This document shows positions 26,327-29,340 of a stretch of 64,000 bases of DNA, in pieces. A program made the position numbers and the translations under genes. How positions within the stretch are numbered: position 1 is the first letter of the stretch; every line of letters starts with the position of its first letter. The DNA is from Dialister pneumosintes (lineage in GTDB: Bacteria > Bacillota > Negativicutes > Veillonellales > Dialisteraceae): positions 969,001 to 1,033,000 of the forward strand of contig NZ_CP017037.1 of the NCBI RefSeq assembly GCF_001717505.1, written 5' to 3'. The notes below the pieces were generated by a model. The model was not told the DNA's origin. It saw only the letters and a program-made list of their open reading frames with translations, and did not search any database.

Positions 26327-27511
26327 ATGAATACTGCTACAGCTGATATAAATCCATATCTTGGTATACTTTCAAAATATAAAACATCTGATCGTTTTCA
26401 AGTTATTTATCAAATTTACACTTCAGATTATAAAGAAGCTCTTGAGCGTGCAAAATCTATTGCTATTGAACAAACTATTGAGTGCCCCTATTCTTTAGTA
26501 GAAAATACATTTATTGCTGAAACTATTGTAGGTAAAATTGAAACTGTCACAAAAATGGATCCTACACATTACGTGGTATGTATTTCTTATGATACACAGG
26601 CTATCGGTAACGAATTTACCGCTTTTGTAAATACCTTATTCGGAAATAGCAGCCTTTCCTATGGAATTCGTCTTCTTGCTTTTTCTATTCCTAAACGTAT
26701 GTCTAATCAATTTAAAGGTCCCCGTCTAGGCATAAATAAGTTAAGAAATCTTGTACAAGTAAATAAAGAGCCTATTCTAATGTCTGCAATTAAACCACTA
26801 GGAACCTCTGTAGAAAAATTAGCTTCTATGGTGTATGAACTGGCCAGTGGCGGTTGCTCTATCATCAAAGACGATCATAACCTTATGAATCAATCTTATG
26901 CACCGTTTACGTCCAGAGTACAAGCATGTGTAAATGCTATACAAGCCGCCTATGAAGAAACAGGATACAAAGCTCTTTATATTGCAAACTGCAATGGAGA
27001 TGGAACGGAAGTATATAATAGAGCTTATGAAGCTAAAAAACTGGGAGCAGACGGTATTATGATTTCCCCTGGACTTGTTGGATTCGGTGCTATACACCAA
27101 TTATCGCAAGATCCTAATTTTAATTTACCAATCTTTGCACACCCAAGTTTTGCGGGACCATTGACAACAACAGAGCAATCCGGGATAAGCCCCTATTGCT
27201 ATTTTGGACAACTAACTCGTTTAGCAGGATGTGACGCTTCTATCTTTACAAGTTTTAATGGACGTTTCTCTTATACTAAAGAAACCTGTTTATCTATTTC
27301 CAAAGCGGCCACAGAACCTCTACATAATATTTCTCCCATGTTTCCTGTTCCCGCAGGTGGAATGAAATCGGAATTATTTTCCTCCATGTATCAAGTATAT
27401 GGAGCTGATGTAATTTTCCTTGTAGGAGGAGCACTTCTTACACATAGTAATAATCTTACACAAAGTACCAAATTCTTTAGAAAACAAATAAAAAACTTAA
27501 TGAATAACTAA
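26327..27511 (+). CDS. RuBisCO-like protein (form IV)
   Basis: A 394-aa relative of RuBisCO large subunit, unlikely to fix CO2. Core motifs align: SAIKPLGTS with the Lys equivalent to K175 (here K156), and GGCSIIKDDHNLMNQ with the carbamylated-Lys position K181 followed by D-D-H, so the metal ligand Glu204 of RuBisCO is His here. Also visible are NCNGDG, AHPSFAGP (His of the active site) and PVPAGGMKSE at loop 6. KDDH occurs in form IV proteins acting as sugar-phosphate isomerases or decarboxylases. No methionine salvage genes are near, so the substrate is open. It lies alone between two terminators. Confidence 0.88.
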   Translation: MNTATADINPYLGILSKYKTSDRFQVIYQIYTSDYKEALERAKSIAIEQTIECPYSLVENTFIAETIVGKIETVTKMDPTHYVVCISYDTQAIGNEFTAFVNTLFGNSSLSYGIRLLAFSIPKRMSNQFKGPRLGINKLRNLVQVNKEPILMSAIKPLGTSVEKLASMVYELASGGCSIIKDDHNLMNQSYAPFTSRVQACVNAIQAAYEETGYKALYIANCNGDGTEVYNRAYEAKKLGADGIMISPGLVGFGAIHQLSQDPNFNLPIFAHPSFAGPLTTTEQSGISPYCYFGQLTRLAGCDASIFTSFNGRFSYTKETCLSISKAATEPLHNISPMFPVPAGGMKSELFSSMYQVYGADVIFLVGGALLTHSNNLTQSTKFFRKQIKNLMNN

Positions 27512-27549: not shown

Positions 27550-28776
27550 TTATTCATCTACTATTTCTCTATGTAATATAAGTGAAGTTAAAAAAGCAAT
27601 AAATAACATTCCTGCAAATAATTGCAATGTATACATATAACTTCCTGTAATTTCTTTCATAAAAGTTAATATTACAGGACCTACAATCCCTGCTATTCCC
27701 CATGCAGTTAAAATACTTCCATGAATGGAAGATAACTGCTTTACTCCAAAAATATCAGAAATGAAAGCCGGCATACAAGAAAATCCTCCACCATAACAGC
27801 TAATAATAATAAAAACCAAACTCTGAAAAAGGAATATGTTACGAGTAAATGATAGAAGAATAAAAGCTATAATCTGAAGTAAAAAGAAACATATATAAGT
27901 TCGACTTCTTCCTATCCAGTCTGAAATGCTAGACCAACCAATACGTCCTCCTCCATTAACTAATCCAATAACCCCTACCAAGGAAGCCGCTTCCATAGGT
28001 GACATTCCTACCAGTTCTTGTGCCATAGGTGATACTACGGCTAACAAACCGATTCCACAAGTAATATTAATAAAAAAAATACCCCATAAAGCATAAAATT
28101 GCCAAGTCCGAATAGCTTCCTTTCTAGTCATCTGCTTTCTTTCTGCCGAAAGTGGTAACCCTTCTTTAGGTTGTTTAATTACAGTAGTAAGTGTAGGAAT
28201 ACCATCTGCAATACGAGGTGCTCGTAAACAGGATGATGAACTATATATAATAAGGAAATAAAGAATTCCCATACTCATAAACATAGATTCTAAACTATAT
28301 ATTTCAATTAAGTATTGCATCACGGGACCTGCTATTAGAGAAGCAAATCCAAATCCCATAATCGCCAATCCCGTAGCAAAACCACGATGATTAGGAAACC
28401 ATTTAATCAGAGTGGATACCGGAGTAATGTATCCAACACCTAGACCAATTCCACCAATAAATCCATAAAAAATATAGAGTAACAGTAAGCTTTTAAAATA
28501 AATAGCTGCTGCCGTTCCTATCATTCCCAAGGAAAAACAATAAGCAGATAATCTTCCGGATTTTACCGGACCGATTTGTTCTACAAAACGACCAAGAATA
28601 CATGCAGACATTCCCAAAAAAAAGATAGCAATAGAAAATGATAATGTAGTTTGGCTAAAAGTAATGTGCATAGACTGCATAACCGGTTTAACTAATACAC
28701 TCCAAGCATATACACTGCCAATACAAATATGTATTCCTACGGCAGCCATAGCAATTAATATTCGATATTTTTTCAT
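27550..28776 (-). CDS. OFA-type (oxalate/formate antiporter-like) MFS transporter
   Basis: Twelve-helix major facilitator, 408 aa. The opening (IAMAAVGIHICIGSVYAWSVLVKPV) and the GFIGGIGLGVGYITPVSTLIKWFPNHRGFATGLAIMGFGF block are characteristic of the OFA subfamily, whose members exchange oxalate, formate or other small carboxylates. The real substrate cannot be read from sequence. GAGGAGGG precedes the ATG. A ZTP riboswitch and terminator stand directly upstream, suggesting the transporter is induced when one-carbon folate supply is short, which would fit a formate-related substrate. Confidence 0.88.
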   Translation of the reverse strand: MKKYRILIAMAAVGIHICIGSVYAWSVLVKPVMQSMHITFSQTTLSFSIAIFFLGMSACILGRFVEQIGPVKSGRLSAYCFSLGMIGTAAAIYFKSLLLLYIFYGFIGGIGLGVGYITPVSTLIKWFPNHRGFATGLAIMGFGFASLIAGPVMQYLIEIYSLESMFMSMGILYFLIIYSSSSCLRAPRIADGIPTLTTVIKQPKEGLPLSAERKQMTRKEAIRTWQFYALWGIFFINITCGIGLLAVVSPMAQELVGMSPMEAASLVGVIGLVNGGGRIGWSSISDWIGRSRTYICFFLLQIIAFILLSFTRNIFLFQSLVFIIISCYGGGFSCMPAFISDIFGVKQLSSIHGSILTAWGIAGIVGPVILTFMKEITGSYMYTLQLFAGMLFIAFLTSLILHREIVDE

Positions 28777-28793
28777 AACAATCCCTCCTCTAT

Positions 28794-28836
28794 AAAAAAG
28801 AGAAAAGAGCGTAAAAAAACGCCTGAGCTTTTCTCT
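28794..28836 (-). terminator. Expression-platform terminator of the ZTP riboswitch
   Basis: On the minus strand AGAGAAAAG and GCG (28836-28818 region) pair with CGC and CTTTTCTCT, followed by TTTTTT (28799-28794). It begins exactly where the aptamer's 3' pseudoknot segment ends, so ligand binding and terminator formation should be mutually exclusive. Confidence 0.8.
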
Positions 28837-28906
28837 GCCCAGACGGTCGACATCTTAATTTACAGTTCATGTGGTTTATTCCACCTTATCCGTCAGTCCT
28901 GTAAAT
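28836..28906 (-). promoter_or_regulatory. ZTP (pfl motif) riboswitch aptamer
   Basis: Minus-strand leader of the MFS gene. It carries the two conserved blocks of the ZTP/ZMP aptamer: GACTGACGG followed by GTGGA...CCACATGAA in the first hairpin domain, and GACCGTCTGGGCA in the second, closed by P1 arms TTTACAG (28905-28899) and CTGTAAA (28865-28859). The text is nearly the same as the Fusobacterium ulcerans ZTP aptamer as I remember it. ZTP riboswitches normally turn on purine and one-carbon folate genes when ZTP accumulates. Confidence 0.9.
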
Positions 28907-28920
28907 CTTATTATATGGTC

Positions 28921-28949
28921 ATAATAGCATCCCTATATAAAACCTGCAA
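28921..28949 (-). promoter_or_regulatory. Promoter of the ZTP riboswitch-MFS unit
   Basis: Minus strand TTGCAG (28949-28944), 17 bases, TATTAT (28926-28921), ending about 15 bases before the aptamer. Confidence 0.65.
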
Positions 28950-28968: not shown

Positions 28969-29340
28969 TTAAATTTTAAATTCAAAAACTCTTGATAATT
29001 TCTTGCTATATCCGGCTTTTTCTTTCGTTTGATTCCATAAAGAAGCTTCTTTCATTCTTTGTTCTCTTTCCAAACGAGTTACTGCGGTATCAGCCACCAC
29101 CATACAGATAGTGCATCCGCGATTTTTTAATCGAAGTAACGTAGAATCAGAAGGTGGTGGAAAAAATTCACTTTTTTCTTCCAACTCTAAAAGCATGCGA
29201 CATAAAGCCAATCTTGCACTATTCATCGCCTCTTCCATGGATTTCCCATTAGCACTACATCCTGCTATATCCGGAAAATCAGCAACATACACACCTTGAT
29301 TACGTTTATAAGTAAAAATAGCAGGATATATATATCTCAT
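28969..29340 (-). CDS. HicB-family antitoxin-like protein without hicA
   Basis: The N-terminal half is a HicB RNase-H-like fold: YIYPAIFTYKRNQGVYVADFPDIAGCSANGKSMEEAMNSARLAL. The C-terminal half (about residues 65-123) is charged and carries no recognisable DNA-binding domain. HicB normally pairs with the small RNase toxin HicA; I find no HicA-like ORF within 230 bases upstream or in the 200 bases downstream. It is 123 aa. GGGGG precedes the ATG. It may be a stand-alone regulator or the remnant of a toxin-antitoxin pair. Confidence 0.8.
   Translation of the reverse strand: MRYIYPAIFTYKRNQGVYVADFPDIAGCSANGKSMEEAMNSARLALCRMLLELEEKSEFFPPPSDSTLLRLKNRGCTICMVVADTAVTRLEREQRMKEASLWNQTKEKAGYSKKLSRVFEFKI

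Follow-up and report, generated by a model that had tools for sequence, protein, structure and literature searches.

The analysed window is a stretch of 64,000 nucleotides from the genome of Dialister pneumosintes. A complete ZMP/ZTP riboswitch aptamer was found on its minus strand at positions 28830–28910. By its coordinates, the aptamer lies in the 5′ untranslated region of a minus-strand gene (27550–28776) for a 408 aa transporter of the major facilitator superfamily (MFS), which is an SfMCT/OFA-type monocarboxylate carrier and a predicted formate importer. The transporter gene is the next gene on the minus strand and starts 53 nt 3′ of the aptamer. Convergent with it, the plus strand encodes a RuBisCO-like protein (26327–27511; RuBisCO_large 99.8 bits), which scores 240.7 bits against the MtnW-type enolase model, below the cut-off of 409, and would be an enolase without an evident pathway in this 1.27-Mb genome. 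A gene for a HicB-like antitoxin (28969–29340) precedes the riboswitch at a short distance on the minus strand, and no HicA was noticed adjacent to it. The second genome of the genus (G001) has the antitoxin gene at the corresponding position (L005 1728–2099).

Structure of the riboswitch leader

Comparison of the full window with all Rfam families by cmscan yielded RF01750 as the sole match, with 58.6 bits (gathering cut-off 39, E 6e-07) and complete coverage of model positions 1–86. A search of all 1,274,073 bases of the genome with the same model found no second ZTP aptamer (E 2.8e-9 for the single match). The sequence-only reading had described a full ZTP aptamer with a closed P1 helix and had named an Infernal search as a check. 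The score is above the cut-off rather than low, the motifs GACUGACGG, CCACAUGAA and GACCGUCUGGGCA are present, and nine of the ten P1 pairs are standard, while one pair is broken. The pseudoknot is formed by GACGG (28890–28894) and CCGUC (28842–28846), which is a compensated change compared to the Rfam consensus GGCGG:CCGCC. In an alignment of 51 leaders, the pseudoknot is paired in every leader (100%) and both forms are represented, with the A-U/G-C double change in five of them. Across P1, P2, P3 and the pseudoknot, 84% of the cells are paired. Two-sided changes occur at 15 pairs of the whole structure, and the covariation score was reached by none of 500 shuffles. The moderate bit score and the broken P1 pair could be taken as signs of a decayed or chance match that stands before the transporter gene by accident. 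The 15 pairs with two-sided changes and the conservation of the aptamer ahead of this gene across about 120 genomes make this explanation negligible.

An intrinsic terminator hairpin, CGTCTGGGC / GCTCAGGCG, was found at 28845–28820 of the minus strand by a terminator scan and overlap analysis (−14.6 kcal/mol), followed by a tract of seven T residues (28813–28819). Since its 5′ arm consists of the pseudoknot strand and the 3′ strand of P3, aptamer and terminator are mutually exclusive, in agreement with the overlapping terminator described from the sequence. A strict version of the scan was adopted, which found such an overlapping terminator in 71 leaders; a looser version matched 35% of shuffled sequence. 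The overlapping-terminator ON arrangement has been published for the ZTP class (PMC2864571), so that the riboswitch class and the terminator logic are known. The promoter that had been assigned to the leader is plausible, yet weak. TTGCAG (28944–28949) and an extended −10 element, TGC TATTAT (28921–28926), were read from the minus strand as candidate elements with a spacing of 17 nt (28949–28921). The possible −35 element agrees with the consensus at 3 of 6 positions. Both hexamers together match at 8 of 12 positions, which is below the scanner threshold of 9 and explains the absence of this candidate from the promoter scan. The predicted transcription start is near 28914, 4 nt ahead of the aptamer.

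In leaders of the transporter gene, the bases just 3′ of P3 are complementary to a segment that follows soon after the T tract. In the D. pneumosintes leader, this helix, here designated P4, has 9 bp and is formed on the minus strand by the Shine-Dalgarno-like tail of the aptamer (AGAGAAAAG, 28828–28836) and by CUUUUCUCU (28799–28807). In 50 of 71 transporter leaders, the helix exceeds the 95% level obtained with shuffled sequences. Its sequence varies by lineage with the pairing kept, as in AGGGAAACC/GGTTTCCCT, TGAAGAGGC/GCCTCTTCA and AAGGATTTG/CAAATCCTT. P4 was absent from the seven fhs leaders examined, nothing clear was seen in three purH leaders, and the match in two pfl leaders has a different placement. 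On this basis, P4 was rejected as a general feature of ZTP leaders. The 3′ strand of P4 can in addition pair with the Shine-Dalgarno sequence in about one third of the leaders and in the own leader, where this region is AGAGGAGGG (28783–28791, minus strand). The duplex of the Shine-Dalgarno sequence with 28799–28807 has −10.1 kcal/mol, compared to −9.2 kcal/mol for P4, and the terminator/hairpin scan also found a hairpin at 28808–28782 on this strand. P4 cannot decide termination, because its 3′ strand is transcribed only after the terminator. It could instead lock the ligand-bound form or free the ribosome site, and this conserved extra helix may add translational control. In such a two-layer switch, the aptamer tail would mimic the Shine-Dalgarno sequence, and the ligand-bound P3 would both stop termination and allow P4 to capture the anti-Shine-Dalgarno strand.

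Conservation of the aptamer-transporter pairing

The pairing of aptamer and transporter was analysed in samples of the family (12 genomes), the order (61 genomes) and the class Negativicutes (300 genomes), and gene inventories were obtained by family searches of the genomes. In ten of the 12 family genomes, a single ZTP aptamer lies next to a single transporter gene; the remaining two have neither. In the order, 73 ZTP aptamers were found, and by their coordinates all of them lie upstream of four genes, namely the transporter gene (41), purH (15), fhs (14) and pfl (3). The aptamer lies 36–157 nt upstream of each of the 41 transporter genes, and the transporter is the sole ZTP target in 30 genomes, including that of D. 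pneumosintes. Six order genomes of one genus do not have purH. They possess fhs and pyruvate formate-lyase (PFL), and have neither a ZTP aptamer nor the transporter (Fisher p 0.0007 when the genomes, which represent a single lineage, are counted separately). In family f2 (G012–G028), purH is split. The AICAR formyltransferase part forms a gene of its own (about 390–450 codons) with ZTP control, and the short part for the cyclohydrolase is found at a separate place.

In the class sample, 133 places with at least 49% identity to the transporter were found. The aptamer is present at 123 of the 131 testable orthologues (119 above the cut-off), and two of the eight orthologues without it are second copies. 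The survey of related transporter genes for ZTP leaders that the sequence-only reading had suggested thus gave 41 of 41 in the order and the above majority in the class. Among named close relatives, which were taken from another collection with partial overlap with the class sample, 16 of 17 have the aptamer, including Phascolarctobacterium and Propionispira. No ZTP aptamer was found at a relative with 44% identity from Bifidobacteriaceae. Placed on the tree, the ZTP label requires 5 changes, compared to 27 for shuffled labels. Tandem aptamers occur in three of the named relatives. In the locus set, tandem ZTP aptamers before the transporter gene were observed at L053 (2725–2928), L055 (2713–2923), L056 (1777–1976), L171 (1301–1505) and L178 (1261–1460), and in the leaders that were read, each aptamer has its own terminator-like sequence after it.

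The genomic neighbourhood also connects related transporters with fhs, the gene for formate-tetrahydrofolate ligase. In 4 of 17 loci of distant paralogues (36–41% identical), fhs adjoins the transporter gene, in the orders ZTP-transporter-fhs (L222), transporter-ZTP-fhs (L220), fhs-transporter (L224) and folD-fhs-transporter (L225). Two orthologues (L227 and L228) are located by fhs as well. As a rough estimate that ignores relatedness, about 0.8 fhs neighbours within 5 kb are expected by chance per 150 loci. At seven further loci (L211, L212, L213, L215, L217, L221 and L223), the paralogue has genes for a Cache-domain protein and a LytS/LytTR two-component system beside it, and tRNA genes are often close by; the domains were identified in L211 and the other loci were assigned by matching gene sizes.

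Family searches found fhs and purH in the genome of D. pneumosintes, and neither PFL nor a FocA-type channel (PF01226). PFL is absent from all genomes of the family sample. Four other genomes (G003, G004, G031 and G032) have purH and fhs without PFL or the transporter, and two of these four have FocA; the transporter is therefore not indispensable. PFL and the transporter are not strict alternatives, since many genomes carry both. The presence of fhs (FTHFS) has no power as a predictor, as the gene is nearly universal in the order and the class, and FocA as an alternative to the transporter showed no clear pattern.

The transporter protein and its predicted substrate

The only NCBIfam cut-off passed by the transporter is that of NF049980 (SfMCT, 'L-lactate MFS transporter'; 369.8 compared to 320), and automatic annotation names a lactate carrier. 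The scores against the OFA model TIGR00890 (188.9) and the oxalate:formate antiporter model TIGR04259 (145.7) do not reach the respective cut-offs of 374.85 and 335. The best solved relatives are the L-lactate/proton symporter SfMCT of Syntrophobacter fumaroxidans (PDB 6G9X, 6HCL), which is the closest, and the oxalate:formate exchanger OxlT (PDB 8HPK) from the same superfamily branch. Pocket positions were mapped from both (PMC6573034, PMC10070484). Five of nine positions are identical to SfMCT, namely N274, R278, Y116, Y328 and F332 (N276, R280, Y119, Y331 and F335 in SfMCT). The other four are changed to V22, F142, L356 and W359 for L28, L145, F359 and C362. OxlT residues R272 (R278 here) and N268 are conserved, whereas K355, which is the other basic residue of OxlT, aligns to W359. 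From these positions it follows that one carboxylate can be held, while the basic pair of OxlT for a dicarboxylate is missing. The earlier designation as an oxalate/formate-type MFS gene is a loose one, given both model scores and the Trp in place of K355.

The pocket does not identify the substrate, because paralogues of the transporter share the same residues, and it was dropped as proof of formate for this reason. Every member of the ZTP-linked clade has His16 and His352, which are rarely found outside it; the corresponding residues of SfMCT are Thr and Tyr. NF049980 does not separate substrates either, since its cut-off is also passed by the paralogue in the fhs-folD cluster. All nine proteins with listed scores, paralogues included, are above this cut-off. 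As transporters in fhs/folD clusters or under ZTP control pass it, this L-lactate equivalog model probably mixes several substrates.

The case for formate builds on the computationally demonstrated aptamer, exclusive terminator, conserved pairing and limited regulon of the order. Genes of purine and one-carbon metabolism are known targets of ZTP riboswitches (PMC2864571, PMC7266159). PurH acts on ZMP and requires 10-formyl-tetrahydrofolate (10-formyl-THF), and rising ZMP/ZTP indicates that this cofactor is short (PMC7266159). The sharing of a regulon with purH, fhs and pfl would tie the transporter to purine and one-carbon metabolism, and the limitation to these four targets points to a regulon of formate supply and use. 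The one-carbon reading of the earlier note is greatly strengthened by the class-wide occurrence of the pairing, by this limitation in the order and by the position of fhs next to related transporters. Formate import also fits a carboxylate carrier, since fhs uses formate and pfl makes it, with purH as the remaining target. With fhs present, no FocA in the genome and no PFL in the family, formate from outside would be useful, and imported pyruvate would be no source of it via PFL. Formate is thus the best call for the predicted carrier and the probable substrate, although SfMCT as the best model counts against it and the pocket changes do not point to it. Of the substrates originally considered, formate is favoured by the regulon and the fhs neighbours. 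A folate or purine precursor is unsupported, as the protein is homologous to SfMCT and OxlT with conserved carboxylate-binding Arg, Asn and Tyr.

The remaining substrates and directions are less probable to different degrees. Pyruvate, or a related C2–C3 acid such as glyoxylate or glycolate, as an indirect source of one-carbon units is unlikely. It is kept as a rival mainly because the LytS/LytTR-Cache loci of some paralogues with the same pocket resemble the YpdAB/YhjX or BtsSR arrangement, in which BtsSR and YpdAB respond to pyruvate and YhjX is a transporter of E. coli (PMC7730263). The whole family lacks PFL, so that pyruvate would not yield formate in this way, and the ZTP-bearing paralogue is followed by fhs. 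Transport of L-lactate as in SfMCT, with the ZTP switch coupling lactate traffic to purine status, is quite unlikely, even though SfMCT is the best curated model, its cut-off is passed by all nine proteins with listed scores, and its Arg, Asn and Tyr are conserved (PMC6573034). The remaining ZTP targets in the order all function in producing or consuming formate or 10-formyl-THF, the gene found by relatives is fhs and not a lactate gene, and four pocket residues differ from those of SfMCT. The aptamer-transporter pairing is also present in Phascolarctobacterium, which depends on succinate and is not known to live on lactate. Export of formate, or its exchange for another acid, is very improbable: OxlT does release formate in exchange for oxalate (PMC10070484), but an ON switch triggered by lack of 10-formyl-THF would then worsen the shortage, and K355, required by OxlT for the dicarboxylate, is W359 here. 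The ON logic thus suggests import as the direction of the carrier.

Taken together, we propose that expression of an MFS monocarboxylate carrier is switched on at the level of transcription by the ZTP (pfl) riboswitch in its leader. When 10-formyl-THF is scarce, ZMP/ZTP from purine synthesis would rise and occupy the aptamer. The predicted ligand response would stabilise P3 and the pseudoknot, block the terminator and allow expression of the transporter. Imported formate would then be converted by fhs to 10-formyl-THF, relieving the block at PurH. We estimate the probability of this whole explanation at about 0.7.

Relation to known systems and biological meaning

The leader resembles the ZTP class RF01750 in its full consensus, pseudoknot, overlapping terminator and ON logic, and the other targets in the order, purH, fhs and pfl, are the textbook ones. 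Unlike the usual members, its target is a transporter, which in this and 29 other order genomes is the only one, and unlike the fhs and purH leaders examined, transporter leaders contain the added P4 helix with possible control at the Shine-Dalgarno sequence. The carrier differs from SfMCT in regulation and neighbourhood in addition to the pocket. FocA/FNT formate channels would serve the same need, formate across the membrane, but belong to an unrelated fold family. More tentatively, and with considerable doubt, the transporter may be a dedicated, class-wide MFS formate importer distinct from FocA that forms the main and often sole ZTP output in Negativicutes and is governed by a two-layer switch. 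Our literature search, which extended neither to Kim et al. 2015 nor to the gene lists in the supplement of Weinberg 2010, found neither ZTP control of an OFA-type transporter nor a class-wide formate-import regulon with this substrate assignment.

The analysis provides a testable substrate for a transporter that is found in more than 120 of 300 sampled Negativicutes genomes and is named an L-lactate transporter by the model. The fixed regulon of transporter, fhs, purH and pfl is strong natural support for the view that ZTP signals a lack of 10-formyl-THF. If the proposed explanation is true, these bacteria would respond to a one-carbon shortage with the uptake of formate that neighbouring organisms release by fermentation, and purine synthesis would be tied to cross-feeding.
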